A stretch of DNA of 64,000 nt from the NCBI GenBank assembly GCA_024762925.1, contig JANTGM010000004.1, forward strand, positions 1 to 64,000, written 5' to 3'. The DNA is from Kofleriaceae bacterium. GTDB lineage: Bacteria > Myxococcota_A > Polyangia > Haliangiales > Haliangiaceae. The notes below the pieces were generated by a model, which had not been told where the DNA came from, did no database searches, and was given only the letters and a program-made list of their open reading frames with translations. Positions 14,773 to 58,985 of the stretch are shown piece after piece. Positions within the stretch are counted from its first letter, which is position 1, and each line of letters begins with the position of its first letter. Both the position numbers and the translations under genes were made by a program.

Positions 14773-14780
14773 CGTTTTTC

Positions 14781-15482: not shown

Positions 15483-15576
15483 GAGCTGAGCATACGACAA
15501 AGCGCGATGGAACGCGGTTACAGGGGACTCTCCATCGCCTCAGCTGGCGCCCAGTCCGTGGACGCCAGGGGCAAGC

Positions 15577-22537: not shown

Positions 22538-24238
<1,701 letters not shown>

Positions 24239-24261
24239 CGCTCCAAAACGAGACCACCCCA

Positions 24262-25356: not shown

Positions 25357-25383
25357 AGGCACTCGGGAGAATAGGAACAAACA

Positions 25384-42258: not shown

Positions 42259-45200
42259 CTAGTTCGTAGCCTTGGCCTTGGTAACCTTGGGCACATCGAA
42301 CTCGCAGCGGCCCGTAACCGCGTTGAAGCTCTGGGATGAGCGACAGACATCGCCCTCACGAGCTGATGCGTCCCCATCGCCGGATCCTAAGCCTAGCACT
42401 TCGCATTCGCCTCCGGCCAAGAAGCCATCATCGACGAAACCAAGCTGCCCAAGGCCATTACCGTTGATGTCCGTTGTGTCTGGATCCTCACACATCTGGA
42501 TTGCATACATTCGCTGCATGACGGGTAGCGATAGAACACCAGAACCGGGCATGAAGGAGTCGCGCATTCGTCGACCTGTCTGCGTATTGATCTTCTCCCA
42601 GTATGCTGGCCTTGCCATACGACCGCCAGAGTTGATGATTCCAGAGGCTTGACGGAAGAACGGCTCACCGCTTGGATCGTCGGCGAAGAACGCTCCTGCA
42701 ACAGGATCGAACGATGGATCCCTCGCGGAGATGGTTGGGTCTCGGAAATCCATGTCCAGCCCACAGTTGGCGTCCTGTGGGTTTGGTAGACATCGCTCTT
42801 TGACGTGCAGCGTGTTGTCGAGCTTGAAGCCCAGCAAGTCGCCGGTGATGCCGTCGGAGGCGAGAATCCACTGCTGGCCAGGCATGATGCTTACAATCAC
42901 GTCTTGTGCGTCCAGCACCTCACCCGGTGGTCCGAAGACGTCGAGTAGGTTCTGAATCACAACAGGGTTCGCAGATGTTGTGATGTCAACATCGAGCACA
43001 CCATCGGTACCAACGGCGAGGTAGGCATGGCCGCTGGCGATGGAGAGTTCGTTGATATCCAGCCCGGGAAGAACGATTGCTTCGTCGGCGCCATCGGCAA
43101 TTGCAGGTGCAAGTGGCTCGAGAATGCTCATCACTGCGAGTCCGCCGGTTGTGCCCGCATAGAGCTGGAAGGCACCAACCGCGAGACCGTTGACCGTAAC
43201 AGTTGGGTCAATTTGAAAGCTCACAGTGTGCACTGGCGTTTGCGGCACAGCCAGGTCAAAGACCTCGATGGTGCCAACGTCGGTGCCAACGTATGCAATG
43301 TCGCCAGCTAAGACAATTTCTGTAGCATTTCCGCCACCGGGGATTGCCACGGTTGCAAGAATCTCTGCAGCGTCATTGCCAGCGTTCGGAGCGTCGTTGA
43401 TCTGCACAGCCGTGATGCCAGCTGCGCCATTGGCAACATAAACAAATGGGTCACTAACATCTGGTGAGATATGGGCCAATGCATTGGCGACATCAGGCAA
43501 GTTGAGAACGAAGACCTTGTTGGCATCCCCAACCGAGGGACGAGCGGCCGTTACATGGCCACGTCCAGAGATGTCACTGACAATCAAGATGCCGGCCGCA
43601 CCATTGCTGTGCGTAGAGACCATGACATCCCGAAGCGTTGGAGGCTGAGTTTGCCCTGCTGCCACTGGAGTCGCATTGAAGTTGCGAATAAGCGCTACGT
43701 CGGTGCCTGTGAAGTTGCCATCAATGCCGCCTGTGCCATCGAGATTCACCTCGACCTCAGCAGCCACTCGGTCCAGACCATTGACGATAATTCCCGGGAA
43801 GCGACTTGAGCCTGCTGCACCTGGGAACTGCCCCTCTTGCTTGTACTCGAAGAGCTCAAGACCGTTGCCACCAGCCATCATGACCCAGTCGCCAACGTAG
43901 CCATAGCGGCTTGCACCGAGGCCCATTGTCTCGCCAAGGATGTGATCGTTGCGAACACGGCCCTCTTCATCAACGAGGCTGTGACACTGCTCGCAGCTTC
44001 GAACTTCTTCTGGACGAACTGTGTGCGGCATCGTTTGGTTCATTGCCGAACCACTGGTTGCCACGTTGGAGCGACCTGTATTCGCATCGAGTTCCTGGAA
44101 TGTTGAGAACGTGATGTTGTCAACCAGAGTGCCATCACCATCGCTAATCGATGGGTGAACAATCATCGAAGAGCGGAATGGAGCGAGACGCTGGCCGTCT
44201 GCTGCGGCGGCGGTACCGAGAACGAATGGTGACCGCAAGAAGCTCAGAAGCTGGAAGTTCGTTGCTCCGGCTTGTAGGGAGTTGTTCATCCAAACCTCAT
44301 TCTCTCCGGCAACCTTCTCAATGGTGCCGTCGGGAAGTAGGCTGTTCTTAACCAAGTCACCGAGGCTGGTGTTGTCATGGCAACCCATGCAGTTGAGCAC
44401 CCAAGAGGTGTGGCAGGAGTAGCACTCGAGCTTTGCAGTCTTAAGGGGAGACGCGCCTGGTTCCCCCTCAAACTCAGACCCCGCTGTGAAGCCATTCTCG
44501 TCTGTTGGCTCAAGAGGAAGGTGGAAGCCGCTGTGCGCAAGTTCAGCACGTGGGTTGTAGCCCTCGTCCTCGGGATTGGTGGTATCGGGAATCTGCGGAA
44601 CCTCCCAAGTGAGACCTGGGGTCACGCGAGACCGCTGGATAATCTTGCCACCTTTGACTTCAAAGAAGGGCCGGCCATCCTGGTCAACTGCTGCCGACAT
44701 TAGATTGCCGCCATTCGCTCCTGAGGTCACAAGCGTCGCTTCTGCAGCTAGCGAGCCGTGGCAATCGTCGCACTCGATCTCGATGACTTCATGGTTGGTG
44801 CCATAGAGATGACCGTCGCCGTGGCTGTCTTGCAGCTGGTGACAATCGATGCAGTGCATGCCCCGCTCATAGTGAATGTCCATGAGGCGCGTTGCACCGT
44901 TTGCTCCACCATACACAAAGCGCGCTTGGCGACCATCGAAGCTGCGCTCTCTTGGCATGCGGTCGATAAGGTCAAGCTTGTTGTTGCCGTTCAAGTCCTC
45001 GTTGATGGTTGCCTCTGCGATAACTTTGCCATCCTCGTCGACAGCTTGCAGCACGACCTCTTCATCAAGACGGCCGTTGTTGTTGCAGTCCTCGGTGAAG
45101 GTCGCCGGTGCACAACCACCAGCACCAGCAATGATGCCCTGGTCAAAGAGCTGCTTGTCTCGCTCAATTGCGAGTTCGATAATCTCAAGTCCCTCTTCTG

Positions 45201-46998
45201 GCTCAATGAGTGTTGTCACGCCCCCAACCGTCTCTTCGCGAACGAGAGAGTCGAGGATGCGAACTTGATCGCCATCGGCCGAGATGAATTCGATGGGTGC
45301 TCGCCTTGCGAGGTCGTCGCGCTGCTCTTCTTCCGTCGTTCCCGTGTACGCAAAATTCACGCGAGTCACAAATGCGTGGCACAAGCCGCAGGTATCTGTG
45401 TCAACCCGCGTTGTCAGCTCGTGATTTGCCGAGTAGTGACGCTGCTGATCTTTGTCGGCAACGTTGGAGAATTCGCGTTCCGCAGTAGTGACAGCCATGC
45501 CTACAAGTCGGCGCTCACCGCCAATCTCTTGGATATCCTGGTTCTTCGCGTCAAATTCACGGTGGACTGTGGTTGGGTCGCGAACCTCCTCAAAAATGGT
45601 CTCGCCGTTCTCGATCTTTGCGACCTTCTGTGGATTGCGAGCTCCATCAAAGTTGTACTTCATGTGACAGCTTGTGCAGCCCATGGAGTGACCGCGCCCA
45701 AATGGGTTGTTGGTCTTGATGATGTCGACATTGGGTTTGATGGACTGCCCAAAGAGGAACGTCTGGTTCCGAACAGAGCCGGGGAAGTTGAGGGGGAAGT
45801 ACGCGCGGAATCCTCTCAGAATCGTGTCCACAGGGTCTGGAATGCCTGGTAGCAACTCGTCATTGAGTGGTGGCTGCATGGAAGGCATCGGGGCTGCCGG
45901 ATCCTTGAGGGGCTTTCCGCCCCATTCGGGGAAACGCGAGTCCTTGCCACCAACGTGCGCAACCGTCGTGTCGGCCTCAACCCCCTCTTGCCTCACGAGC
46001 GTGCCCTGCGTTGCTTCGAATGCGGGCAGGTCTGCCTCATCGATATTGGATGCGACGTTGCCGGGGGCACCAGCAACAGCGTTCGGATCGTTCACCTCAG
46101 CAAGCGCTTCTAGGCACTCAGAATCAAAGAATGGTTGCGTGCGTCCCGTTGGATCCTCAAGCGATGCATCGTTGACAATGCAACCGTCGATGCCCGTGTA
46201 GTCGAAGCTGTAGCCAAAACCACCACGGCGAGGATCGGGGGCATCTTCAAGCAAGTCACGCCCTTCCTGGAATGCCGCTCGCCAGCTCTCGTTGCCGTAG
46301 TAGGCGCCGTTGATAACGGCGGAGTTGTTGGTCATCACAGATCGGCGATTGCTCTCGACCACGCTCTGGTGACAGCCGCCAGCGGCATTGCCATTGTTGG
46401 CAGAACTCGAGGCACCACAACCAATCGTGGCAACACGCAAGTCACCCGGGTTCAGCCATCGTGTGTAGTTGAGATCGCGGTTGTACTCAGAGTCGATAAA
46501 TTGTCCAACGCCCTCACCTTGAAGGCCAGGTTCAGCAATCTCACCAAAATCAACCAGGACATCTTGGCCCAGACCGTTTACATCAAACTCGGGCCCCTCA
46601 TCGACAATGCCATCACCGTCATCGTCCATGCCGTTGCCGTAGAAGAATCGCGCAAGGCCTGGCTTGGGCTTAACGTGCGCCTCTGCGAGCAAGTCCGGAT
46701 CGCTGTAGATGTCTTCATCTTCGAAGGCGTTATCGGGAATCTCTACTTGGTCGTTGCCACCATGGCAGTCGACACAACGCAGCTTGTAGGTACCGTGAAC
46801 CTGCTTAGACTCCAGCCCCGCGTGACAGTTGATGCATGTCCCATCAAATTCGAAGTCGTCATTAACGACCGTCTCCTTGCCCTTGATACAGGCGGTAGTT
46901 CCGAGTGCCAGCACGAGTCCAACGAGAAGGAGTGAAAGACTAAGAGCCCCTTGCTGTCCTCGCTGAAAGCCAATGTTGTGAGTTTTGCGTTCGTTCAT
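42259..46998 (-). CDS. giant decaheme-type lipoprotein with beta-propeller
   Basis: 1579 residues. Lipobox ALGTTAC with Cys 37 as lipidation site. Nine CXXCH motifs (about residues 55, 75, 441, 537, 716, 743, 858, 870, 1000) and one CX14CH (C194...C209-H210). Ca-binding-like loops (MDDDGDGIVDEG at about 124-135, CNNNGRLDEE, NGNNKLD). Residues about 1130-1395 form LVIVD/beta-propeller-like repeats (GAAGILIVSDI, YVANGAAGITAVQI, AYVGTDVGTIEVFDL). It is the last gene of the six-gene operon; GAGGAGG lies ten bases before the ATG. A surface-exposed terminal oxidoreductase or electron donor to an outside partner is likely by analogy with OmcB/MtrC-type proteins, but it matches none of them closely. 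Confidence 0.88.
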   Translation of the reverse strand: MNERKTHNIGFQRGQQGALSLSLLLVGLVLALGTTACIKGKETVVNDDFEFDGTCINCHAGLESKQVHGTYKLRCVDCHGGNDQVEIPDNAFEDEDIYSDPDLLAEAHVKPKPGLARFFYGNGMDDDGDGIVDEGPEFDVNGLGQDVLVDFGEIAEPGLQGEGVGQFIDSEYNRDLNYTRWLNPGDLRVATIGCGASSSANNGNAAGGCHQSVVESNRRSVMTNNSAVINGAYYGNESWRAAFQEGRDLLEDAPDPRRGGFGYSFDYTGIDGCIVNDASLEDPTGRTQPFFDSECLEALAEVNDPNAVAGAPGNVASNIDEADLPAFEATQGTLVRQEGVEADTTVAHVGGKDSRFPEWGGKPLKDPAAPMPSMQPPLNDELLPGIPDPVDTILRGFRAYFPLNFPGSVRNQTFLFGQSIKPNVDIIKTNNPFGRGHSMGCTSCHMKYNFDGARNPQKVAKIENGETIFEEVRDPTTVHREFDAKNQDIQEIGGERRLVGMAVTTAEREFSNVADKDQQRHYSANHELTTRVDTDTCGLCHAFVTRVNFAYTGTTEEEQRDDLARRAPIEFISADGDQVRILDSLVREETVGGVTTLIEPEEGLEIIELAIERDKQLFDQGIIAGAGGCAPATFTEDCNNNGRLDEEVVLQAVDEDGKVIAEATINEDLNGNNKLDLIDRMPRERSFDGRQARFVYGGANGATRLMDIHYERGMHCIDCHQLQDSHGDGHLYGTNHEVIEIECDDCHGSLAAEATLVTSGANGGNLMSAAVDQDGRPFFEVKGGKIIQRSRVTPGLTWEVPQIPDTTNPEDEGYNPRAELAHSGFHLPLEPTDENGFTAGSEFEGEPGASPLKTAKLECYSCHTSWVLNCMGCHDNTSLGDLVKNSLLPDGTIEKVAGENEVWMNNSLQAGATNFQLLSFLRSPFVLGTAAAADGQRLAPFRSSMIVHPSISDGDGTLVDNITFSTFQELDANTGRSNVATSGSAMNQTMPHTVRPEEVRSCEQCHSLVDEEGRVRNDHILGETMGLGASRYGYVGDWVMMAGGNGLELFEYKQEGQFPGAAGSSRFPGIIVNGLDRVAAEVEVNLDGTGGIDGNFTGTDVALIRNFNATPVAAGQTQPPTLRDVMVSTHSNGAAGILIVSDISGRGHVTAARPSVGDANKVFVLNLPDVANALAHISPDVSDPFVYVANGAAGITAVQINDAPNAGNDAAEILATVAIPGGGNATEIVLAGDIAYVGTDVGTIEVFDLAVPQTPVHTVSFQIDPTVTVNGLAVGAFQLYAGTTGGLAVMSILEPLAPAIADGADEAIVLPGLDINELSIASGHAYLAVGTDGVLDVDITTSANPVVIQNLLDVFGPPGEVLDAQDVIVSIMPGQQWILASDGITGDLLGFKLDNTLHVKERCLPNPQDANCGLDMDFRDPTISARDPSFDPVAGAFFADDPSGEPFFRQASGIINSGGRMARPAYWEKINTQTGRRMRDSFMPGSGVLSLPVMQRMYAIQMCEDPDTTDINGNGLGQLGFVDDGFLAGGECEVLGLGSGDGDASAREGDVCRSSQSFNAVTGRCEFDVPKVTKAKATN

Positions 46999-47016
46999 GA
47001 TGGTGATGCCTCCTCG

Positions 47017-48192
47017 TTAGTTCACGAGGTCGTCGAGTGAAGGTTTCTTGCGGCGGCGCTTGCGCGGCTTGGAATCGTCGTCGTCGACGAGAGAGTCTAG
47101 GTTGGAGCTGCTAGAGCTGCTCTTGCCCGTAAGGCTGTTAAGAATCGACTTGGACGAGTGGCAGAGCGAGCACTTGCCCGTGCCCTTGCTCTCGTTCAAC
47201 GCAGACCGATGACAGCCACTGACGCCACACTTGTTGTGGGCTCGGTCCCTGCTGTTGTCCATGATTGGCGCTTGCTTGACTTCGAGAAGACTCTGGTAGC
47301 CGTACCCCTCGTAGCGCCTGAGAGAAAACATGAAGTGGCAGTGGCCACACTGCAATGCCTCGCCGTCTTTCTTGGTTCGATGCCCCTCGCGCTCGTGCTC
47401 GAAGCATGGAGTCGCAGCTTTGCGCTTCGTTTTGAGGGCGGCATACCGAACGGAGTTGCAGCTTCGCACGTCTGTGCTGAAGCGACGCTGCTTGAAATAG
47501 GCCTTTGGATCGCCAGAGGCATGGCACTTGGTACAAGTGCCCATCGCGAACTCGGGTTCCATCGTGCGGCTCTCCTTGGCAGCGCCATCGTGGCAGAGAA
47601 CGCACTCGCTATGCCCAGGCCCCTCAGTAGCCAGGGCAAACGTTGTGGAATCCACAACATGGCAGGTTCGACAGCCCCCGCCGTTCGCCGCTGCAGCCTT
47701 GGTGTGGGCCAAGTGGTTCATTTCCACATAGTGGCCTGGCTTAGAATTATTCTTATATAGGCTTACGGCCTTTGCCTTGACGAATGGACTGGGCGCGCGC
47801 CCCGCCCCATCATCGTGACAACCAAGACAAAAGCCCGCCGCTTTTCGGTAGCGCTCGGGCGCATCCTTGCGTGTCCGCTTGCCTACGCTCAGAAAATCGG
47901 ATGCATGACAACCAGCTGAAAGGCAGGGCTGGTGTCCATGACTGGCAGGCCTGGTAAGAGCGCCCTGGGCATCATTGCCATGACACTGCTCGCAGGCTGC
48001 GATATCTACAGGATCGTCCAAATACGCATGTGCGGAATGGTCGAATTTGAGTGGCACCACGGTGCCCTCAGGGCTTTTGTCCTCTGGGTTCTGGCCAGGC
48101 GCAAGCGACACCACAGCTCCCAATACGAGAGTCGTCGTTGCAGCGCCGGTTGCAAGAACGCTCAGCCTCACGGCTTGGCAACTCCGTGGCAC
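47017..48192 (-). CDS. nonaheme c-type cytochrome with Ser/Asp/Arg tail
   Basis: 391 residues. Signal-like N-terminus (LSVLATGAATTTLVLGAVVSLAPG). Haem sites: seven CXXCH (CEQCH, CLGCH, CRTCH, CVLCH, CTKCH, CGHCH, CSLCH) and two CX4CH (CLSAGCH, CGVSGCH). Many free His in HxxH-type spacing (FDHSAH) could be distal ligands, as in cytochrome c7/c3 relatives. The last 45 residues are odd: a Ser run, a DDDD run, then RKRRRKK. This charged tail is absent from its two sister cytochromes. It overlaps the upstream gene by 25 bp. Periplasmic electron carrier. Confidence 0.87.
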   Translation of the reverse strand: MPRSCQAVRLSVLATGAATTTLVLGAVVSLAPGQNPEDKSPEGTVVPLKFDHSAHAYLDDPVDIAACEQCHGNDAQGALTRPASHGHQPCLSAGCHASDFLSVGKRTRKDAPERYRKAAGFCLGCHDDGAGRAPSPFVKAKAVSLYKNNSKPGHYVEMNHLAHTKAAAANGGGCRTCHVVDSTTFALATEGPGHSECVLCHDGAAKESRTMEPEFAMGTCTKCHASGDPKAYFKQRRFSTDVRSCNSVRYAALKTKRKAATPCFEHEREGHRTKKDGEALQCGHCHFMFSLRRYEGYGYQSLLEVKQAPIMDNSRDRAHNKCGVSGCHRSALNESKGTGKCSLCHSSKSILNSLTGKSSSSSSNLDSLVDDDDSKPRKRRRKKPSLDDLVN

Positions 48193-49031
48193 TTCACGCA
48201 GCCGAACCCGGTCGTTTTGAAGGCGTTAACTCCATCATGGCAAGCATCGCAGCTTTGCATCGTTGGTCGGGGGATTTCCGACAAGGTGTTCGCATTCTCT
48301 ACGCCGCTATGACACAGCTTACAGCCAGGCGTTTCTCGTGACTTTTCTCGAGGATCGCGATCATGATCATCATGACGAAATCGAGCTCGTACGGCGTATT
48401 TTGATTGATTCTTTAGCCGCTCTGCCTGGTAGCCAAGCTTGTGACAGTCGCCACAATCGCTCATGAGCGGACGAAGCCCCCCTTGGTGGCAACTCCCACA
48501 GACCGCGTGTGCTTCCGGCTTCTCGCCTTCCACATAGACGTTGCCATGGCAGCTCTGACACTTAACGCCACCCTTTGCAGCTTTGTCACTCTGGTGTGTC
48601 TTGTGGGAAATCTCGCCACCAAACTCAGATGTTGGCAAGTCGCGAATCCGCGCAATCTGTTTCACCCAAGGCTCGTTGGTGTCATGGCAGACGACACAAA
48701 TCTTGGGCTCTCGGCTCATGTACTCCGAGGCGTGGCAGCCAGAGGTGTTGCAGGGCTGGTGATTCTTGCCTCGGGTGACAGGCTCAATTTCGAAGCCCTT
48801 GATGCCGTGACACTGTTGGCAGTCCTCAACCGCAACACCTTTGCTCTGATGCAGCTTGTGCCCAAATCGAACCATCTCAGCACTTGGAGCAGCGGGTTCG
48901 GCAGCAGCAGCCTTTTCTTGTGCATAGCTATCATCGCTTGTGCCAAAGACGAGTGCTGCGATGACCGCCAAACCAGCGGCCACTAGGCCACGCCATACGC
49001 GGGGAACGGAGATCATGGATAGACGAGACAT
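48168..49031 (-). CDS. nonaheme c-type cytochrome
   Basis: 287 residues. Signal peptide with a cleavage-like SYAQ-E. Eight CXXCH (CQQCH, CVVCH, CQSCH, CGSCH, CGDCH, CKLCH, CDACH, CVKCH) and one CX4CH (CNTSGCH). The CX4CH segment HQPCNTSGCHASEY aligns with HQPCLSAGCHASDF of the 391-residue protein, so the two are paralogues. His-rich FGHKLH and ISHKTH pieces supply distal ligands. A soluble periplasmic carrier between inner and outer membrane is the simplest reading. Contiguous with the gene before it. Confidence 0.88.
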   Translation of the reverse strand: MSRLSMISVPRVWRGLVAAGLAVIAALVFGTSDDSYAQEKAAAAEPAAPSAEMVRFGHKLHQSKGVAVEDCQQCHGIKGFEIEPVTRGKNHQPCNTSGCHASEYMSREPKICVVCHDTNEPWVKQIARIRDLPTSEFGGEISHKTHQSDKAAKGGVKCQSCHGNVYVEGEKPEAHAVCGSCHQGGLRPLMSDCGDCHKLGYQAERLKNQSKYAVRARFRHDDHDRDPREKSRETPGCKLCHSGVENANTLSEIPRPTMQSCDACHDGVNAFKTTGFGCVKCHGVAKP

Positions 49032-49874
49032 TTAGTTGCCTCCTTGCGTGTGACACTTGGTACAGGTGGTGCCGATCGCGTTAAACGCCTTCTTGCCGTC
49101 GTGACATGACTTCTGGCAACTCTGCATGGTTGGCAATGGAACTGTCGTATCGGCTTCGGCTGATTTGATGTTTTCGTGGCAGGTGAGGCAAGCCCGGCCC
49201 GCAGTGCCAACTCGGTCCACGGCAGCATGGGCTTGATGGTCAAACTTGCCTTTCACGGCAAATGGATTGGCATTGCGTTTTGCAACGACAGCTTGTCCCG
49301 TTCCTTTGGAGTGACAACCGTCGCACGACTCCTTGATGCGTGGTGTCACGCCTCGTGCGTGGCAGCCAGAACACAGAGCGTGCCCAGCGGAGAGATTGCC
49401 TTGTGTGGGAGCGCCAGCACCAAAGCTGCCATGACAGCTCTCGCATTGCTCACCACTCTGGCTTGGCCGAATGTGCTTGCGGTGAGAATAGTTCGCAGAG
49501 AACTCACTGAGCCCTGCAGCTGGTGCGACATAGCCACTCGGCGTGCACTCGGACTTAAATGTCACGTGGCAGGTGAGGCAAACTTTGCCCTCCTTCTGCT
49601 TCAGTGTTCCACAGCTCGAACTGAACTTGTGACAGGAGAAACAACGAGCATGCTCCTTTTTTCCCTTTTGCTGCCACTCGCCATCGGCAGTTGCTGCATG
49701 ACACCGAGCGCACTCAACCTTGACGGTGCTCGCATGCTTCTCATGGCTGAAGAGGCGGTCCTGAGGGACAGCGGTTTGCATGCCCTTCTGCCCGATTGCC
49801 GGAACGGAAATGGCGGCGATTGCCAGAACAATGAGGCCAATGCCCCAAACTTGCGTGCGTGTTCGTACGCTCAT
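49032..49874 (-). CDS. nonaheme c-type cytochrome
   Basis: 280 residues. N-terminal signal (GLIVLAIAAISVPAIGQ). Eight CXXCH (CARCH, CFSCH, CLTCH, CESCH, CSGCH, CDGCH, CLTCH, CTKCH) and one CX3CH (CQKSCH), the last being a rare spacing. FSHEKHAS and YSHRKH hold distal His. The C-terminal half (PTMQSC...CHDGKKAFNAIGTTCTKCH) is clearly related to that of the 287-residue cytochrome (PTMQSCDACHDGVNAFKTTGFGCVKCH), showing duplication within the operon. One base separates it from the porin gene. Confidence 0.88.
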   Translation of the reverse strand: MSVRTRTQVWGIGLIVLAIAAISVPAIGQKGMQTAVPQDRLFSHEKHASTVKVECARCHAATADGEWQQKGKKEHARCFSCHKFSSSCGTLKQKEGKVCLTCHVTFKSECTPSGYVAPAAGLSEFSANYSHRKHIRPSQSGEQCESCHGSFGAGAPTQGNLSAGHALCSGCHARGVTPRIKESCDGCHSKGTGQAVVAKRNANPFAVKGKFDHQAHAAVDRVGTAGRACLTCHENIKSAEADTTVPLPTMQSCQKSCHDGKKAFNAIGTTCTKCHTQGGN

Positions 49875-49875
49875 C

Positions 49876-51576
49876 TTAGAAATTAGCCTCCATAAGAACC
49901 CGCAGGCTCACCATCGCGTCGATATCTGCCGCAATGCTCTGCGACGGTTGAGCCACCTCTCCCGTCGTGCGCAAGCGAACTAGTGATGTCGGCCAGTAGC
50001 CAACATCGAAGCGCACACCACCGCGGCCGTCGTTGTCGAGAACCGCGTAGGGTGACTCGATGTCCAATACCCGCACATAGCCTCCAAAAGCGGCGGATGC
50101 TTTCTTCTTGCCAAAGTTGTAGCGAGCCTCGCCCGACAGTTCGTGTAGTTGTTTTGTTCCGGTGCCGGTGGTGTCGTCAAAAGCCGAACCTTCGAGATTG
50201 CCTGTGGCGTCCAAGTCATGTGCTCGGAACTTGTACTGCCCAGTTGTGGTGAGGCGCTTGCCAATCAGCGCACTACCCGCGATCCCAAACTCTTGAAAGG
50301 GCCGAGAGAATGCATCCGATTGCTCGGCGTTCTTGACGAGTCGATTGCGATAGAAGGCATAACCTTCAAAGTTACGCGTGAGCTGATAATTGGCGCGCGC
50401 CCCAATCAATGTGGAGTTCTGTGGTGTACCAATCGCAAGCCCGAGCTCTTGCCCAACATTGACAACATCTATGGGTGATGCGCCGATGTAGTCAAAAGCG
50501 AGTTCCCGTGCAAAGTTCTTTTCGACATCGGCAATGACAGTAAGGTCATCACCAATACTCTGGCGAACCTGCCCCCCAAGCCGTCCAATACCAGAGCTAT
50601 TGTCTCCATCGGTGCCATCATCGATGAAGCGTCCACGGAAGTAGAGTCTGGTGTTTCGCGCGACTCGAGCACGGCTATTGGCCTCGATGAAGATGGGTGC
50701 AGCCGCGTCATCCCCACCAGCGTCGTAACGCATGAAGTCAACGTTGAGATCAGCTGGGTAGCCAAAAATCTCTTCGCCCCGCAACTTCACGCCCGCTCCG
50801 GCAAGAAGGCCTGGGTCATCGTTGAAGAAGAGGGAAACTCGCTGGCCAAAGAAGGCCGAGACCTCGGCCATTCGGTGGTCATAGGCCGCGGTGATGCCAT
50901 CGAAGTTTGCTACGAAACGATTTGAGCCATAGCGGTACTGGCGACCGGCGCGAAGATAGATTGAGTCGAGTACCCCGCCCTTCTCTCCGCCGAGGCCATC
51001 AAGTTCTGCGTACCCTGCCCGAATGAGCAAAGCCTGACTCTCATCACCGTCGTATACGTAGTTCATCGCAGTGAACTGACCACCGCCTGCATCGAGCTGA
51101 AAGCGCGAGAGAAAGTAGCTGTTGAGCGAAGGCATCAAGACACCACGTGTGCCGATAATGGCGTCGCCAAGCAAGTAGTTCCGATTGTCTGCGTAGGCGT
51201 TGCCTTGCGCATCCACAACATCGCCAGGTGCAAATCCCGTCTGGGCGACGTTGCCACTCAGCTGGCTGACATCAAGCCCATATCCGACGTTGGTCTTGAA
51301 TATGACACGCTCTTTGATGTCTCGGTACTGCGTTGGAATTGCCCTGTACTCGAGTCGAGACGTCTTTGCCTTTGCTGCAGGGGCTTCCTTCTTGGAAACG
51401 GAAGCATCTTCGGCAGCAGCACTGCGCATGTTGAGCGTTGACAACTCTCGCTGTGGAAGCTGCTTGAGACGGAGATCCATGGGGCTCTCGGCCAACGCAA
51501 CACTGGTACTACCCACAACAGCCGCACCAGTAACCACACCAGCAAGGACTCTACGTATTTTTCTTAGACGGCTCAT
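49876..51576 (-). CDS. outer-membrane beta-barrel, porin-cytochrome conduit type
   Basis: 566 residues from ATG 51576, which overlaps the stop of the 15-heme gene (ATGA). Signal peptide ending SVALA-ES. After a Lys/Ala-rich plug-like segment the chain shows amphipathic strands throughout (YFLSRFQLDAGGG, SIYLRAGRQYRYG, NTRLYFRGRFIDDG, FEGYAFYRNRLV) and ends with Phe (MEANF), the C-terminal signature recognised by the Bam machinery. It would form the sheath through which a multiheme protein crosses the outer membrane, as in MtrB or OmbB. Sequence similarity to those is not obvious. Confidence 0.82.
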   Translation of the reverse strand: MSRLRKIRRVLAGVVTGAAVVGSTSVALAESPMDLRLKQLPQRELSTLNMRSAAAEDASVSKKEAPAAKAKTSRLEYRAIPTQYRDIKERVIFKTNVGYGLDVSQLSGNVAQTGFAPGDVVDAQGNAYADNRNYLLGDAIIGTRGVLMPSLNSYFLSRFQLDAGGGQFTAMNYVYDGDESQALLIRAGYAELDGLGGEKGGVLDSIYLRAGRQYRYGSNRFVANFDGITAAYDHRMAEVSAFFGQRVSLFFNDDPGLLAGAGVKLRGEEIFGYPADLNVDFMRYDAGGDDAAAPIFIEANSRARVARNTRLYFRGRFIDDGTDGDNSSGIGRLGGQVRQSIGDDLTVIADVEKNFARELAFDYIGASPIDVVNVGQELGLAIGTPQNSTLIGARANYQLTRNFEGYAFYRNRLVKNAEQSDAFSRPFQEFGIAGSALIGKRLTTTGQYKFRAHDLDATGNLEGSAFDDTTGTGTKQLHELSGEARYNFGKKKASAAFGGYVRVLDIESPYAVLDNDGRGGVRFDVGYWPTSLVRLRTTGEVAQPSQSIAADIDAMVSLRVLMEANF

Positions 51577-52910
51577 CGCACCCCCCGGTGACAACGCGAA
51601 CATGTGTCTTCGTATGTGTGACAGGCCATGCAACTTGTGAGGCCAAAGCGTGCACTCTCAGCATGCCCACCGAGGCGGAACTCACCAAGAGGCTGGTGCG
51701 AGCGCGGAGGGATTGAGTGACAAGCAGTGCAGTAGTCTGCTTGGTGGCAGGTTGCACACCGATCGCGGTTCACAGATGCTTCGCGACCGTGATTCTCGTT
51801 GCGCCAACCGAGCATGTGGTCCTTCGGACGCATCACCTCGTGGCATTGGAAACACGAGTCACGAGAGTTGCCGCTCAAGTTCTCGTGACAGTATTTGCAG
51901 TTGGCATTCTCGTCGGCCGCCTGCTCGGCGTGATTGGCGCGGAACTCCAAGTTGTGATTCTCGGGAAGCGTCGAACCAGTGAGGTGAGTTCGCGGTGTAT
52001 TGCCATCGACCATGCCCTCGTGGCAAACTTTGCACTGGGCGATTCGAACCCGCTCAGGGGTTCTCTTTGGGTCTTGATGACACTTTGCGCATTCCTGCAT
52101 TTGCGGAACGCTGACATCCTTGATCTCTGTCGAGAGGGCCACGTCTTCGTGACAGGATTCACAGCCAATGCTGGCACCAGCGCGGTCTTGGACGTGATCT
52201 CCGTGCGAGAAAATTAGGCCCTCGGTGATCATGATTCGGCCTTGGGCGATATCCACTTTGCTCTGCTTGTGGCAACTCGCGCAGTCGGACATGCTCATGA
52301 CTTTCTTCGCCTTGCCCTCATGACAGCGAGCACATGCGTCGTGGCGAGGCAGGAGTGGATCGCCTGTCTTCTCATCTCGGGAATGACAGTCATCGCATCC
52401 AAGATGGAAGCCAACTGCCGATTCCATGCCCCCTTTGTCGAGGTGATCGCGATGAGAAAAGTTCGAAGCGAGCACTTTCTTGCTGCCACGCGATGGGAAG
52501 ACCTGCATCTTCGTTGCACCTTCGGCGGTGATATCGACGCTGACGTGGCAATTCTTACAAAACGCCCCAGGAGGCTTGTAGAACTCTTCTTTGTGGCAAT
52601 CGTCGCAAGGCGCATGATCGTTGCCCCCTGGGAATGGAGCAAGCCCCTTCCGCACATCCTCTTGTGGGTGACAATCCTTGCACTCGAGCCCACGATCCTT
52701 GTAGCTGGTAATGCGCTTGTCATTTCCGGTGTGCAGTTCGTGGGGAAAGCGATTGCTATCTGCGGCAATCACCTCGGCACTTGCCTTGGTCGAAGACCGA
52801 GATCGACCACTACAGGCGGCGCTCAACGAGAACGCGAGGACGAAAACAATTGGTAAGCCAAGACCAACTCTCCCCCCCCGCAAACCATCACTCAATACTC
52901 GGCGACTCAT
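51573..52910 (-). CDS. 15-heme lipoprotein cytochrome
   Basis: 445 residues from ATG 52910 (MSRRVLSDG). Lipobox LSAAC. Fifteen CXXCH motifs, all of standard spacing: CKDCH, CDDCH, CKNCH, CDDCH, CARCH, CASCH, CESCH, CAKCH, CKVCH, CKYCH, CFQCH, CATCH, CTACH, CMACH, CSRCH. Distal-ligand patterns FPHELH, FSHRDH, FSHGDH. It is the first gene of the operon and coupled to the barrel gene. It could be the outer-membrane wire (MtrA/OmaB role) that fits inside the barrel, or a periplasmic-side lipoprotein; the sequence does not decide. Confidence 0.9.
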   Translation of the reverse strand: MSRRVLSDGLRGGRVGLGLPIVFVLAFSLSAACSGRSRSSTKASAEVIAADSNRFPHELHTGNDKRITSYKDRGLECKDCHPQEDVRKGLAPFPGGNDHAPCDDCHKEEFYKPPGAFCKNCHVSVDITAEGATKMQVFPSRGSKKVLASNFSHRDHLDKGGMESAVGFHLGCDDCHSRDEKTGDPLLPRHDACARCHEGKAKKVMSMSDCASCHKQSKVDIAQGRIMITEGLIFSHGDHVQDRAGASIGCESCHEDVALSTEIKDVSVPQMQECAKCHQDPKRTPERVRIAQCKVCHEGMVDGNTPRTHLTGSTLPENHNLEFRANHAEQAADENANCKYCHENLSGNSRDSCFQCHEVMRPKDHMLGWRNENHGREASVNRDRCATCHQADYCTACHSIPPRSHQPLGEFRLGGHAESARFGLTSCMACHTYEDTCSRCHRGVR

Positions 52911-52946
52911 GGTGCGATGCCAGGATAACCACAAAGTTGCCTTTAC

Positions 52947-52958
52947 AGGAATTATCCT
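52947..52958. promoter_or_regulatory. inverted repeat AGGA-N4-TCCT in divergent promoter region
   Basis: AGGAATTATCCT, a 4+4 bp inverted repeat around ATTA. It lies between the cytochrome operon and the cNMP/ferredoxin gene, in an 107-bp divergent intergenic region. Candidate operator or half of a larger site; short enough to be chance. Confidence 0.3.
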
Positions 52959-52961
52959 CCT

Positions 52962-52975
52962 CTACTATCTAGTAG
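52962..52975. promoter_or_regulatory. palindrome CTACTA-TC-TAGTAG, candidate operator
   Basis: A perfect 6-bp inverted repeat with a 2-bp centre in the 107-bp gap between the two divergent redox operons, four bases from the first palindrome. Its central position suggests joint control of both directions. It does not match the CRP consensus TGTGA-N6-TCACA. Confidence 0.4.
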
Positions 52976-53017
52976 TGGATGTTGCCCACCGGCGGGATCA
53001 CGTAGCGAAGTCGGACG

Positions 53018-55255
53018 ATGGCCAATTCCACGCATGAAACCGGAGCAACGGCTCCCCATGTTGCCCTGCTCAGTCAGGTGCCATTTCTCTCCGACGCCAG
53101 TTCCGAGGTTCTGAAGAACCTGGCTGAGAACACCCTGGTAAGGCGATATACGGCCTATGAGCCGATATCCCAGCAAGAGGAATTCGCTCACTCCATGTTC
53201 ATCGTGGTCTCGGGGAGCGTCTCGCTTCACGCCGTTCGCAGTGATGGAGTTTCGATTCCCCTGGGCACCCTCACACGCCCTGGCGAGTTTTTCGGTGAGG
53301 AAGCTTTGCTTGGAAGGGGAATCCGCTTGGCCACGGCGGTGGCAGATACAGAGACGGTGCTCTTGGAGGTGGAGCAACGGAAATTTGCCCTGCTCGCCCG
53401 CAAAACCAGCGGAGCTTCCGAGGCGCTTGAGTACACCTACCACCAACGCTCGATCATCACGTTCATTCAGATGCACCCGTATCTGTCGCAGCTTCCTCCA
53501 GGTCAGGCCAGTCGGCTCATCGCCGGCGCTACCATGGCGACGTATCAGAAGGACGAGCTGCCTGTGCGCCAAGGCGATGCAGCGACACAAGTCATGCTGA
53601 TTGCCGATGGTGTGCTCAAGGCGCTTCGAACCACAGATGATGGACGGCTCTCGGTATTGGCCTACTTCAATAGTGGCGATGTGGTTGGCTCCCACGATCC
53701 GCCACAGCGGCCCTACAGCCTGACGGCTCTTGGCAAGGCCGAGGTCATCTTCATTCCAAAGGCAGCGTTCGACGAACTTGAGTTCACCGCACCACAAGTC
53801 TACGCCCGCTTTGGCAAGGACCGGATGTCGCGCACAGGCATCATGGAAAATGCCGGCCAGACGATCTTCGGATCCGCAGAGGCGCTCTTTCAAGAGGGCA
53901 TGGAAGTTGAGTCCTTGCTCATCATCGACCTGGACCGATGCGTTCGATGTGGCAATTGCGTTCGGGCATGCCACACCCGGCATGAGTACACCCGACTTGA
54001 CCGACGTGGGCCGATCTTTCGCCGGCGAAAATCCCTCTCCTCCAAGGAGCACGAGCACCTTCTGATTCCTTCATCGTGTCGCCACTGTCGTGACCCTGAG
54101 TGCATGATTGGCTGTCCTACGGGGGCTATCGCGCGCCACCCAAATGGCGAAGTCGAAATCAATGAGAACTGCGTCGGTTGCGATAACTGCGCTCGCAAGT
54201 GCCCCTACGGGAACATCACCATGCGGCCAATCCCGGAGGCCGAGCAGAAAGACAACATCGTCAAGCAGGCAATCAAGTGCAACCTGTGCCGTGGCCACAA
54301 ATACTCCAATTGTGTGCATGAGTGTCCACGTGGTGCCCTGCTCCGTGTGAACCCTTTGGAGCACTTTGATGAACTCGCGCTTGTCCTTGCTGCAGATCAA
54401 GATCGAGAGGGACAAGGAGCTTCAACGCGCCGCAAGCTTCCAAAGCGCTCAAGTCGCCCCATGACAACGTTGGTCGCCTCGGTGCTCTTACTCCTGCTCT
54501 TCTCGGGCGGCATTACCGCTGCGCACTTCATGGCCCCGGATTCCTACTCGGCCTCGAGTCCGCTTGGCCTTGGATTTGGCGTTGTGGGTGCTGTATGCAT
54601 TGTATTGGCCCTCTTGCTCGGCGCTCGGAAAAAGCTCAGCAACCACGGTCTGGGACGGCTCGAGAGCTGGACACAGTTACACATGACGTTTGGCGGTATT
54701 GGTTTTGTCGCCGCGATGGCTCATGCTGATTACGGAGTTGCCGGCATCGGCACCACATTGCTAATGCTTCTCTTCGCGCTCGAAATCATAACTGGCGTGA
54801 TAGGACAGCTGCTCTATTCAAACGTGCCGAAGATTCTGACCCACATCGAGAAGTCTGGGAATTCAAAGCTCATTGAAGACCTCTACGAGGAGCGCAACGA
54901 GCTCCGAGAGGGCTTGCGACAAATTCTGATCAAGCAACCATCTGAGGTTCGCGCCTTTGCATCGACCTTGCGACGGCTTGCAGGCTCTCCACGGCGCAGG
55001 TACAGCCGCCGCTTCGACGCCGCCCAACACCAAACGTTCCTACTCGCCAACCTGCCGTTGCAGGGGCATTTGGAGCACCATCGCCCTGTGATTGAGAGGG
55101 TACTCACCGACCATTGCAAAATCTCGGATACCGTGGCGCAGATCAAGCTGCACCGAGTTCTCAAGCAATGGCTCTTTCTTCACCTAGCCACCTCTGCAGC
55201 TCTCGTCACCGTACTTATCCTCCACGTTTTCACCATGCTTCCGATCGTCTGGTAG
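53018..55255 (+). CDS. cNMP-binding x2 / four-cluster ferredoxin / b-type membrane fusion
   Basis: 745 residues. cNMP domain 1 at about 15-130 keeps the phosphate cassette GEFFGEEALLGRGIRLATA (E95, R103). cNMP domain 2 at about 150-260 has a degenerate cassette (GDVVGSHDPPQRPYS). A DmsB/NrfC-like region at 305-445 holds four Cys groups (CVRCGNCVRAC, CRHCRDPECMIGCP, CVGCDNCARKCP, CNLCRGHKYSNCVHECP) for four [4Fe-4S] clusters. Then about five membrane helices (482-600 and 716-740) with His 555, 569, 722 and 736, spaced as haem b ligands (H722-x13-H736). It probably links cytoplasmic donor and quinone or periplasmic haems, gated by a cyclic nucleotide. 19 bp before the FHA fusion gene. Confidence 0.88.
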   Translation: MANSTHETGATAPHVALLSQVPFLSDASSEVLKNLAENTLVRRYTAYEPISQQEEFAHSMFIVVSGSVSLHAVRSDGVSIPLGTLTRPGEFFGEEALLGRGIRLATAVADTETVLLEVEQRKFALLARKTSGASEALEYTYHQRSIITFIQMHPYLSQLPPGQASRLIAGATMATYQKDELPVRQGDAATQVMLIADGVLKALRTTDDGRLSVLAYFNSGDVVGSHDPPQRPYSLTALGKAEVIFIPKAAFDELEFTAPQVYARFGKDRMSRTGIMENAGQTIFGSAEALFQEGMEVESLLIIDLDRCVRCGNCVRACHTRHEYTRLDRRGPIFRRRKSLSSKEHEHLLIPSSCRHCRDPECMIGCPTGAIARHPNGEVEINENCVGCDNCARKCPYGNITMRPIPEAEQKDNIVKQAIKCNLCRGHKYSNCVHECPRGALLRVNPLEHFDELALVLAADQDREGQGASTRRKLPKRSSRPMTTLVASVLLLLLFSGGITAAHFMAPDSYSASSPLGLGFGVVGAVCIVLALLLGARKKLSNHGLGRLESWTQLHMTFGGIGFVAAMAHADYGVAGIGTTLLMLLFALEIITGVIGQLLYSNVPKILTHIEKSGNSKLIEDLYEERNELREGLRQILIKQPSEVRAFASTLRRLAGSPRRRYSRRFDAAQHQTFLLANLPLQGHLEHHRPVIERVLTDHCKISDTVAQIKLHRVLKQWLFLHLATSAALVTVLILHVFTMLPIVW

Positions 55256-55274
55256 CAAGATACGAACTCTTCCT

Positions 55275-58200
55275 ATGTCTCGCTTCATGCGCTTGCTCTT
55301 TCACCGTGGCCCCTGGGCTGGCCGCGAGCTTGTGACCGCAGCACCGATGCTCCGCATAGGTAGCGACCCCTCGAAGAACGACCTTGCGCTGGATGACCCC
55401 GAACTTGCGCAAGCACATTGCATCGTGCAGCGGTCTTCCCGCGGAGAGTACATTCTGGAAGACCTCAGCCAGATGAGCGCATCGCTGTGCATCAACGGGC
55501 AGATCCCGCAAGATGACGCCGCGATCTATCTCTGCCCTGGAGATCGATTCGAACTTGGCGGCTCCGAGATCGAAGTTGCCGAGGCAAGCCCGAGACTCCT
55601 GCAAATCTCTGGTGCACACGCTGGGCGCGAGTTTCCTCTAAGCGAAGAGCTTCTCAGTTTCGGCCGGGCTCCCGACAATGTCATTGCAATCGACGACTCG
55701 GAGGCATCGGTCTATCACGCTGTCATTCGAAGCACAGCTCCGGGTTTTTCCCTAGAAGACCAACGCTCCACAAATGGCACGTTCGTCAATGGCAAGAGAG
55801 TCTCGTCTCACATTCTTGGGGATGGCGATATCGTTCGTCTCGGCCAGCAGGAGTTCCTCTTTGCCGCAGTGCAGAGTCCACTTGAGCCGGCAGATGATAT
55901 CGCGCCAGGCCAGCGCCGCCTCGACGATGTTCGGGCCTACTTCCAGATCCTCACAGGCACCCAACTCAATACACGGATCGAACTCGGATCGCTTCCGCTG
56001 CTGATCGGAACGGGGCTCGACTGCGACTTCGTCCTACACGACTCAGCGGTTGCCCCGGCACATGCTCGGGTGGTGCCAAACAACGACCTCTACTACCTTC
56101 AAGACCTCGGTTCAGGGGACGCGACGCTGGTCAACGGGCGGCGAGTTACAGGAGAACCTCGACTACTGCAACCCGGAGATCTTCTTACTTTTGGCTCTAC
56201 AACGGCCGAGTACCACGTAAAGGGCGGTGTTGTTAGCGAGACTGGCATATCGATGGCAATGACGTCGGTCATCGCGGCGGGTGCCTACGACCTAACGCCA
56301 CAAGCCAAATACGTCGTCAATGGGCATGTTGAGGTCTGCGATGAGATTCTCATTGGCAGCTCGCCAGGATGTCACCTCCAACTCGATAGCGATGGGATCA
56401 GCCCAATGCACTGCCGCATTCGCTGGTCAGGTCAGTTCACCATTGAGGACACCTCGGTCTCGGGAACGTTCTTAGGCGACAAGCGCATCGTCAAAGAATC
56501 GCTACAAGACGGCTTGGTGATCCGCATCGGCCAGGAGCTTGTCGATGTGCGCATCGCCGGCGAGCGATGCAGCTTGGACCAAATCGATCGAGCCACGGCC
56601 GCTGCCGCGATTGAGGTCGCACATGAAACCTCGTTCGACCTCTCGAAGGCACAGCTCGATCCCGCCAACATGGGTGGCGCTATCACGAGCGCTTACAAGA
56701 CAGTTTACAAGCTCAACTACGCGGACGTCGACTCATTAGTCCGTGAGCGCAAAGAGAAGTTCCGCCAAGGGGCCCCAGCCTGGCGTCCCAGCACGGACAT
56801 TCGCAGACCGGCGACGGCTCGAATCAGTGTTATTCTTACCATCCTCGCCTCAATCGGACTTGCGGCCTTCGCATACAGCAGGAACCACATCACAGAAGTC
56901 CTGGTGAATCATCCGCTCAGCGAGTCCCATTCTACAGCTCTCTTTGTCCAACAAGCCGAGCAACATGGCCTAAGGGCAGACTGCCGAGCCTGCCACAGCT
57001 TGGGTAACGGACTCTCCGACGATCTCTGTCTCACCTGTCACGAGGGGCTCAGCGCAGGCATGCGAGAGGAGCACCGCTCGACAAAGAAGGCCTTGGCTCC
57101 GGGACGTAGGCTGCCAAATTCAAGCTGTGCCGATTGCCATCGCGAGCACAATGCAACGCCACGATTTGTCATGGGAACTCCGTCGCTGCTCGGGGCTGGA
57201 CGTGGCTGTGCAGAACAAGCTTGTCACCCAAATCAGCATGAAGGCGACTTCGACAAGGACTCGGCGCCCATCGTGAACGCTGCCGAACTGCGACTGGCCG
57301 CAGGACCGATTCCCAATTTCGACACTCCCCAGGAGGAGTTTCACATTGCACATGCAAGCGTTGAGCATGAAGGCAAGAGCATTGCGATTGCCTGCACAAC
57401 CTGCCATGCAAAAGCCGATTCTCAGACCGGGGAGCTTGTTGAGCGCGAGCCTGGCAGAGCGTGTTTTGGATGCCATAGCGGTGGAGGTTCACTGCAACAG
57501 GAGTGTCTCTCCTGTCACGGCCTCGAACACGGCAATTCCCATGGCTTTGTGCGAGCCGCGACTGATGACCCTGCAATGGCAACAGTCACGCCAAAAACCA
57601 GTGCCCACCACTCACTCTTCTGGGCCTTCCTCATAATGGTCGCGCTCTTTGTTCCACTCGTTTTCTTTGGCCTTGTGCTGCGTTTGCGAGCTCGTCGAAC
57701 TGCAACACAGGTCGTCGCGCGGCTTCATGAGTTCCCTGTGGAGGCCGTCAAGCACCTGGTGCACTCGATCAATATGGACAAGTGTGTTGGCTGCCATGCG
57801 TGTGTGCAAGCCTGTCCAACCAGCGTGCTCGAACTCGTCAATCACAAGTCGCAAATCGTCAACTTCGATGCGTGCATTCAGTGTCGTGCGTGCGAAGCCT
57901 CCTGTGCCTTTGGTGCGCTCGTCATGCATGAAGCGGATAAGCCTCCGCCATCAATTAAGATGCCCGATCTTGACGCGGGACTGCAGACTCCTGTGCCAGG
58001 TCTCTACCTCATTGGACAAGCTGCGGGCATAGCTCAGGTAAAAAACGCGAGCAATATGGGTCGCACCGTCATCGACCGAGCTATGCAAGCTGGCCTCAGT
58101 CCCGGCGAAGGACAACGGCTGGGCGCACAAGTGGATGTGGTAATTGTCGGTAGTGGCCCCGCAGGGCTAAGTGCAGCTCTGAGCTGCCAGCACCACGGTT

Positions 58201-58985
58201 TGCGCGCACTCGTACTCGAGAAACAGCCCGACTTTGCCTGGACCATTCGCAACTACTTCCACAAAGGTAAAGAAGTCATGGCCGAGCCACATGAAGTTCA
58301 GCTCGCTGGTTTGCTGCCTGTTTGGGATACGGACCGCGAAGGCCTACTCGCGGCCTGGAAGAACACCCTCGAAACCGCCAAGCTTGAGATTCACTACCGC
58401 CAAGACGTCACAAACATCGAACACAACGGCCAGCACTTTGCTGTGAGTGTTTGCGACGCAGCTGGCAATCCAACCGGCACCTGGACCGCAGCCCGAGTTG
58501 TGATTGCTGTGGGGGGCTTGGGCCATCCGCGCAAGCTTGGCTGCCCAGGAGAAGAACTCGACAAGGTTCGCTCGGCCCTTGTCGACCCAGACGAGTTTCA
58601 TGGGCGCGATGTGCTTGTTGTTGGCGGCACGGACTCGGCTATTGAAGTTGCGCTTGCGCTCGCAGCCACAAACCGAGTCCAGTTTTCGTGTCGTGGTGAG
58701 AAGTTCGATAGAGCCAAACAAAAGAACCGCGACCGCATCGAAGAAGCCTTTCACTCGGGCTTGATCGCTCCACACTTTGTCACTCAAGTGGTTAACGTGA
58801 CCGAGCAAACGGTGACGCTGGAGAACCGCAAAGACGGCACACAGGTGGAGTTTGCCAACGACCTCATCTTCGCATTGATTGGTGGTATTCCCCCGAACAA
58901 GTGGCTTGAGTCGCTTGGGGTGAACTACGTTGAAAAGCCGCACAGCTGGTCACCGCCACCAACTGACGAAATTCTTCGAGGTTAG
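55275..58985 (+). CDS. FHA x4 / heptaheme / 2x[4Fe-4S] / FAD-NAD(P) oxidoreductase fusion
   Basis: 1236 residues. Four FHA domains: about 15-100 (degenerate), 115-197 (canonical FGRAPDN...STNGTFVNG), 232-316 and 347-427. TM1 at 514-534. Periplasmic domain with seven haem sites: CRACH 570, CLTCH 585, CADCH 618, CAEQACH 645 (CX4CH), CTTCH 707, CFGCH 730, CLSCH 744. TM2 at about 780-804. Two [4Fe-4S] motifs (CVGCHACVQACP 837, CIQCRACEASCAFG 867). FAD motif VVIVGSGPAGLS at 955-966 and NAD(P) motif VLVVGGTDSAIE at 1113-1124. Topology is self-consistent: FHA and flavin inside, haems outside. It would take electrons from NAD(P)H to periplasmic haems, with FHA domains sensing phosphothreonine. Confidence 0.9.
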   Translation: MSRFMRLLFHRGPWAGRELVTAAPMLRIGSDPSKNDLALDDPELAQAHCIVQRSSRGEYILEDLSQMSASLCINGQIPQDDAAIYLCPGDRFELGGSEIEVAEASPRLLQISGAHAGREFPLSEELLSFGRAPDNVIAIDDSEASVYHAVIRSTAPGFSLEDQRSTNGTFVNGKRVSSHILGDGDIVRLGQQEFLFAAVQSPLEPADDIAPGQRRLDDVRAYFQILTGTQLNTRIELGSLPLLIGTGLDCDFVLHDSAVAPAHARVVPNNDLYYLQDLGSGDATLVNGRRVTGEPRLLQPGDLLTFGSTTAEYHVKGGVVSETGISMAMTSVIAAGAYDLTPQAKYVVNGHVEVCDEILIGSSPGCHLQLDSDGISPMHCRIRWSGQFTIEDTSVSGTFLGDKRIVKESLQDGLVIRIGQELVDVRIAGERCSLDQIDRATAAAAIEVAHETSFDLSKAQLDPANMGGAITSAYKTVYKLNYADVDSLVRERKEKFRQGAPAWRPSTDIRRPATARISVILTILASIGLAAFAYSRNHITEVLVNHPLSESHSTALFVQQAEQHGLRADCRACHSLGNGLSDDLCLTCHEGLSAGMREEHRSTKKALAPGRRLPNSSCADCHREHNATPRFVMGTPSLLGAGRGCAEQACHPNQHEGDFDKDSAPIVNAAELRLAAGPIPNFDTPQEEFHIAHASVEHEGKSIAIACTTCHAKADSQTGELVEREPGRACFGCHSGGGSLQQECLSCHGLEHGNSHGFVRAATDDPAMATVTPKTSAHHSLFWAFLIMVALFVPLVFFGLVLRLRARRTATQVVARLHEFPVEAVKHLVHSINMDKCVGCHACVQACPTSVLELVNHKSQIVNFDACIQCRACEASCAFGALVMHEADKPPPSIKMPDLDAGLQTPVPGLYLIGQAAGIAQVKNASNMGRTVIDRAMQAGLSPGEGQRLGAQVDVVIVGSGPAGLSAALSCQHHGLRALVLEKQPDFAWTIRNYFHKGKEVMAEPHEVQLAGLLPVWDTDREGLLAAWKNTLETAKLEIHYRQDVTNIEHNGQHFAVSVCDAAGNPTGTWTAARVVIAVGGLGHPRKLGCPGEELDKVRSALVDPDEFHGRDVLVVGGTDSAIEVALALAATNRVQFSCRGEKFDRAKQKNRDRIEEAFHSGLIAPHFVTQVVNVTEQTVTLENRKDGTQVEFANDLIFALIGGIPPNKWLESLGVNYVEKPHSWSPPPTDEILRG

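Follow-up and report, generated by a model that had tools for sequence, protein, structure and literature searches.

Do the haem-rich genes of a Kofleriaceae bacterium (Myxococcota_A; Polyangia; Haliangiales; Haliangiaceae) encode a route for electrons across the cell envelope, and if so, is it one of the routes already described? The question is raised by the window analysed here, a stretch of 64,000 nucleotides (positions 1 to 64,000 of contig JANTGM010000004.1, assembly GCA_024762925.1), in which a first-pass annotation had proposed a six-gene outer-membrane electron conduit. These genes, P0001 to P0006, lie on the minus strand from 52910 to 42259 and encode, in order of transcription, a 15-haem lipoprotein, a barrel, three cytochromes and a giant protein. 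Together with two divergent neighbours, P0007 and P0008, they make up a set (42259-58985) that probably encodes a cell-envelope electron conduit, a new porin-cytochrome lineage with its own inner-membrane module; we put the probability of this reading at roughly 70%.

Eight genes and their haem sites

The six genes are closely packed, with gaps from P0001 to P0006 of -4, +1, 0, -25 and +18 bp, and motif counting gives 52 haem sites in total (15, 9, 9, 9 and 10 in the five haem proteins). The first-pass annotation had arrived at the same total and at overlaps or gaps of no more than 18 bp, and both are correct. Shuffled versions of the sequences contain on average only 0.01-0.14 CXXCH per protein, so that the numbers of haem motifs are beyond chance.

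As a six-gene outer-membrane set the locus is present and conserved, but that description leaves out P0007 and P0008 (53018-58985, plus strand), which accompany it; an eight-gene set spanning the envelope is the more fitting description. A divergent intergenic region of 107 bp (52911..53017) separates the outer- and inner-membrane halves, and no consensus promoter was found in it above chance. A promoter and terminator scan gave fewer sites than in shuffled sequence. Gene order is shared with loci L022, L024, L025, L026 and L027, and with L028 and L030, where it is split over contigs (L038-L041 duplicate the contigs of L027, L025, L024 and L026, and L042 that of L028; each was counted once). 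P0007 and P0008 diverge from the set where the contig extends far enough, in L022, L026, L027 and L030, and L025 shows P0007 alone. These sequence comparisons support the existence of a conserved lineage of such sets.

Three exported cytochromes, each with nine haem sites, lie between the barrel and the giant. P0003 (280 amino acids, aa; 49032..49874, minus strand) has c7-type repeats by Pfam and carries eight CXXCH motifs and one CX3CH, the latter being CX2CH in the nearest relative. P0004 (287 aa; 48168..49031, minus strand), recognised by motif count and Pfam, has eight CXXCH and one CX4CH, and P0005 (391 aa; 47017..48192, minus strand), recognised by motif count, has seven CXXCH and two CX4CH; the CX4CH sites of both are retained in the nearest relative. 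P0005 has a GTG start, and its 25-bp overlap with P0004 is also present in the close relative L028. P0003 and P0004 correspond to a single fused protein in L022, L024, L025, L026 and L027, with 14-16 CXXCH plus atypical sites.

The two divergent genes have the features of an inner-membrane module. P0007 (745 aa; 53018..55255, plus strand) has two cNMP-binding domains, 4Fe-4S domains that include PF13247 at residues 347-441 (35.6 bits, cut-off 26.2), and a C-terminal transmembrane cytochrome b. This membrane part holds two WX3HX13H motifs, at residues 551-569 and 718-736, and a TGXXG motif (TGVIG at 592); the WX3HX13H pair is present in 11 further homologues, and both motifs occurred in 0 of 5000 shuffles. 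P0008 (1236 aa; 55275..58985, plus strand) combines, by Pfam, motif count and a transmembrane scan, four FHA domains, a transmembrane helix, seven haem sites (six CXXCH and one CX4CH; an extra CXXCH at 837 sits in the ferredoxin domain), a second transmembrane helix, two 4Fe-4S motifs and a TrxR-like NAD(P)H/FAD domain. With this topology P0008 would carry electrons from NAD(P)H in the cytoplasm to haems in the periplasm within a single chain.

Paralogues of the pair occur elsewhere in the same genome. At 8898-15960 of locus L152 (contig C26:17000-36900) the P0007 and P0008 paralogues are 50 and 47-49% identical to those of the window and adjoin a paralogue of P0005, with no barrel or giant nearby. 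Another haem-rich cluster (L156, contig C43:1-14000) contains a 775-aa protein with 28 CXXCH and a protein with 16 CXXCH, and has P0007/P0008-like genes beside those for 464- and 548-aa proteins.

A mechanism can be proposed for the eight proteins. At its FAD/[4Fe-4S] end P0008 would exchange electrons with NAD(P)H or ferredoxin of the cytoplasm and would pass them across the inner membrane to its own periplasmic haems, while P0007 would move electrons across the same membrane through two b-haems, probably tied to the quinone pool. The periplasm would be bridged by P0003, P0004 and P0005, the outer membrane crossed by P0001 inside P0002, with the proteins forming a complex, and electrons exchanged at the cell surface by P0006.

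The P0001/P0002 pair and the outer membrane

P0001 (445 aa; 51573..52910, minus strand), the proposed wire through or at the barrel, is a predicted lipoprotein with 15 CXXCH motifs and a lipobox cysteine, C33, that is nearly invariant among 13 homologues. Besides the 15 motif histidines, 15 further histidines are invariant in P0001 and 12 homologues (n = 13), and this matches the needs of a fully bis-histidine wire. P0002 (566 aa; 49876..51576, minus strand) has a signal peptide, no cysteine and an aromatic C-terminus. Its AlphaFold2 (AF2) model has about 19 strands beyond residue 189 and resembles outer-membrane barrels, at a low predicted local distance difference test score (pLDDT) of 48 from five sequences. 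We found no Pfam or NCBIfam match for P0002 by hmmscan, only chance hits of the barrel profile to PDB sequences, and no homologue in a plasmid collection; by sequence, the barrel appears to belong to a new family rather than to any named one.

The first-pass annotation had judged the barrel to be unlike MtrB, and at the level of sequence this is borne out. MtrB forms a 26-stranded barrel around MtrA. Membership of P0002 in the MtrB family by sequence was rejected, as hmmscan gave no PF11854 (MtrB_PioB) match at E values up to 1, and PF11854 has no match anywhere else in the genome. Foldseek matches to the low-confidence model are outer-membrane barrels of every kind, including OprD-type porins and TonB receptors. 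The MtrB chain 6r2q_B is found beside many other barrels (E 3.3e-4, TMq 0.35) and is not outstanding among them, being outside the 50 rows of a second look; with a pLDDT of 48, the model speaks neither for nor against a shared fold.

Of 192 genomes of the class, 29 have the barrel family (alignment A5), and almost all of these belong to the family and order of the window's own genome; four distant genomes elsewhere in the phylum have it too. The barrel adjoins a P0001-family cytochrome in every locus read, the distant ones (L161-L164) included, although L163 has only a piece with 6 CXXCH that corresponds by homology to the C-terminal part of P0001. Other partners vary and are, in one set of loci, TPR proteins and a 15-haem cytochrome. 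The large lipoprotein beside the pair is exchanged: in L161 and L162 the place of the giant is taken by an unrelated cytochrome c554-type lipoprotein of about 1200 aa (P0021 at 7672-11289 of L161; 3791-7474 of L162). Surface components of Geobacter conduits are likewise exchanged while the crossing is conserved (PMC6148476), and by analogy the P0001/barrel pair may be a constant crossing that is served by different surface lipoproteins.

A different explanation is that the cytochromes are periplasmic electron stores or shuttles, with the barrel an unrelated, co-transcribed transporter and no crossing of the outer membrane at all. The poor barrel model, which has OprD-type porins and TonB receptors among its best matches by fold, would allow this, as would the set of P0007, P0008 and P0005 paralogues that lacks a barrel. 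However, barrel and P0001 remain adjacent in distant loci as their other neighbours change, and both P0001 and P0006 have lipobox cysteines; we consider this explanation improbable.

A second pair of a 15-site lipoprotein and a barrel is present in the same genome (L021, contig C152, 3748-6737); its neighbours are TPR, DUF481 and DUF5916/CBM9 proteins, with no further cytochromes. Comparable arrangements are found elsewhere in the genus (L029 and L032).

The giant lipoprotein and its relatives

P0006 (1579 aa; 42259..46998, minus strand) is a predicted decahaem lipoprotein and the proposed surface oxidoreductase. It has nine CXXCH motifs and one CX14CH (46369..46419, minus strand), and its lipobox cysteine, C37, is invariant among six aligned type-A proteins. 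Ten haem sites are in register and conserved in essentially all of 76 aligned homologues. In the column of the CX14CH site, 37 of the 76 proteins have CX2CH and 31 have CX4CH, the forms with which it aligns in other phyla; CX13-15CH is confined to the window's clade.

That the giant also carries a beta-propeller, as claimed in the first-pass annotation, is confirmed by the AF2 model. The propeller takes up the C-terminal third of the protein (about residues 1034-1389; 42832..43899, minus strand) and gives a VIA Z of about 26 to beta-propellers in a fold search that covered the propeller only; pLDDT is 70-97 for most of the last 220 residues and lower in the first blades. P0006 has no match among PDB sequences.

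Scanning genome contigs turned up 228 relatives of P0006, with Planctomycetota, Acidobacteria, Zixibacteriota, KSB1, Calditrichia and Alphaproteobacteria among the groups represented; the family thus reaches at least six other phyla. Most of these loci have a barrel-like gene with an aromatic C-terminus directly upstream of the giant, and a homologue of the giants' barrels lies close by in 39 of 48 long loci. No kinship between these barrels and that of the window was detected by hmmsearch in both directions or by hhalign, so that giants are accompanied by two barrel families unrelated by sequence. P0007-like genes occur near giants of other phyla in 25 of the 48 long loci, and 10-haem membrane-anchored cytochromes in 21. 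Near the giants in L076, L077, L079, L085 and L110, P0008-like FAD domains and P0007-like cNMP/FeS domains are fused in one protein, which ties the inner-membrane module to the giant independently of the window. The view that the set is a lineage of its own therefore needs qualification: the sets are conserved, but the giant is not limited to that lineage and belongs to a cross-phylum family with an unrelated partner barrel.

Against the ExtM model (NF040943) P0006 scores 78.9 bits, which does not reach the equivalog cut-off of 800, and other giants score 90-92 bits; matches of giants to ExtN and ExtO are weak. With its ten haem sites in register and its C-terminal propeller, P0006 is a member of an undescribed decahaem-propeller family that is remotely related to Geobacter ExtM.

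This kinship bears on the possibility that P0006 works at the outer membrane as an enzyme on a soluble compound (by analogy with selenite or tellurite and ExtM, an oxyanion), with the barrel serving as substrate channel and the wire feeding the enzyme without solid-phase transfer. In support of it, giants match ExtM at 79-92 bits and, weakly, ExtN and ExtO, and deletion of extI in Geobacter reduces selenite and tellurite reduction (PMC5877670). Furthermore, just six non-motif histidines are conserved over all 76 giants, so some of the ten haems outside the window's clade may lack a fixed second ligand and have an open site. Within that clade, however, 12 non-motif histidines are invariant, enough for bis-histidine ligation at all ten haems, and the 800-bit ExtM cut-off is far off. 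An enzyme of this kind is on the whole unlikely, and P0006 is better regarded as the candidate surface end of an electron conduit.

Elsewhere in the same genome, a 678-aa lipoprotein with 11 CXXCH, remotely like the giant and ExtM, is encoded at 8569-10605 of locus L154 (contig C22) and is followed by a 332-aa protein. The P0006 homologue of L121/L022 (G030:C353) has an in-frame TGA inside the match, where a sequencing error or proximity to the start is possible.

Relation to known conduits and direction of flow

The locus has the general features of a porin-cytochrome conduit: in the window and its relatives a barrel gene adjoins the gene of an exported multihaem cytochrome, and the cluster encodes multihaem lipoproteins (P0001 and P0006, predicted from conserved lipobox cysteines). 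The design of a barrel, a wire cytochrome and, as in MtrCAB, a surface multihaem lipoprotein is that of MtrCAB, MtoAB and PioAB, whereas the window barrel lacks PF11854, P0001 is a 15-haem predicted lipoprotein with c7-type repeats, and there are three extra 9-haem cytochromes. The Geobacter OmbB-OmaB-OmcB and Anaeromyxobacter Pcc systems (porin plus a 12-14-haem cytochrome; Shi et al. 2014, PMC4245776) also pair a barrel with an adjacent, haem-dense cytochrome that has a similar number of haems, and Anaeromyxobacter is likewise a myxobacterium. Their cytochromes are 338-344 aa long and described as periplasmic (PMC4245776), and it is by such descriptions that we set them apart from P0001 and P0002. 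The Geobacter ExtHIJKLMNOPQS selenite/tellurite cluster resembles the locus in combining a barrel, several cytochromes and an inner-membrane cytochrome b (PMC5877670), and the haem part of the P0006 family is a remote relative of ExtM (79-92 bits). It differs in that the giant's score is roughly one tenth of that required for ExtM, P0006 is 1579 aa long whereas the ExtM model covers 599 positions, and the window set has no rhodanese-type gene.

There are also parallels with the putative porin-cytochrome clusters PCC4 and PCC3 (He et al. 2017, PMC5566968). Their cytochrome b of the inner membrane carries two WX3HX13H motifs and [ST]GXXG, as in P0007; they have a PF13247 Fe-S protein beside the inner-membrane protein (subgroup II), which in P0007 is fused; and they have a barrel with several multihaem cytochromes. 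The cytochromes described for PCC4 are periplasmic, with 4, 5 and 10 haems, and none is extracellular (PMC5566968), whereas the window set has 15, 9, 9, 9 and 10 haems and two predicted lipoproteins, a comparison made with the description of PCC4 and not with its porin sequences. The giant loci of Alphaproteobacteria and planctomycetes may overlap with PCC4 of He et al. The claim of a new porin-cytochrome lineage for extracellular electron transfer thus stands in part. The barrel-cytochrome set, its conserved lineage and the lack of PF11854 are in its favour, but the inner-membrane gene P0007 bears the PCC3/PCC4 signature, so that known systems do include kin of this one; extracellular electron transfer is the function that the set would plausibly serve.

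The direction of flow is a separate matter. Three haem-copper oxidases and Cytochrom_C_asm proteins are encoded in the genome, and the host presumably makes c-haems and respires oxygen. The same conduit could work inward, P0006 oxidising an extracellular donor (Fe(II), Mn(II) or another reduced compound). The electrons would then be received by the quinone pool and the haem-copper oxidases or, by an uphill path through P0008, by NAD(P)+. The oxidases are consistent with such a path, and PCC3 and PCC4, which share the cytochrome-b signature of P0007, are proposed inward carriers in Fe(II) oxidisers (PMC5566968). The sequence itself sets no direction, however, and the NAD(P)H/FAD domain of P0008 suits outward flow equally; we rate the probability of inward flow as somewhat below even.

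Several points weigh against a trans-envelope conduit of either direction. The barrel model has a pLDDT of 48 from five sequences, and the fold search cannot separate a conduit barrel from a substrate porin. In contrast to MtrA, P0001 is a predicted lipoprotein, so it might be tethered to the inner leaflet without crossing. The P0007/P0008 paralogues without a barrel indicate that the module is not dedicated to outer-membrane traffic and also serves something else, and a P0007-like gene is near only about half of the giants of other phyla (25/48).

Our literature search, which did not extend to subscription papers and preprints, found no description of the window set, of the decahaem-propeller family, or of conduits in Kofleriaceae or Haliangium; the porin-cytochrome lineage is real and conserved and, as far as the literature searched shows, undescribed. 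It seems that electron conduits of the outer membrane have evolved on several occasions from unrelated parts. If the conduit reading is true, it adds an independent barrel family, present in most sampled genomes of one myxobacterial family, and a wire whose conserved spare histidines equal its haems in number. With the linked two-gene inner-membrane module, the path between NAD(P)H and the periplasm takes a definite form that can be tested, and the giant cytochrome is a marker for such systems in Planctomycetota, Acidobacteriota, Zixibacteria, KSB1, Calditrichota and Alphaproteobacteria. We suggest, tentatively, that the giant, the NAD(P)H/FAD-FeS-FHA wire and the PCC3/PCC4-type cytochrome b belong to one ancient, undescribed system spread over at least seven phyla, whose crossing in Myxococcota was replaced by an unrelated barrel and a 15-haem lipoprotein. 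It would provide a route from NAD(P)H to the surface in one locus, possibly gated by cyclic nucleotides or phosphoproteins through the cNMP and FHA domains.

Elsewhere in the window, genes at 22538-26586, at a distance of 16 kb, have T2SSE, T2SSE and T2SSF domains and encode the motor and platform of a type IV pilus or type II secretion system (pilB/pilT/pilC-like).

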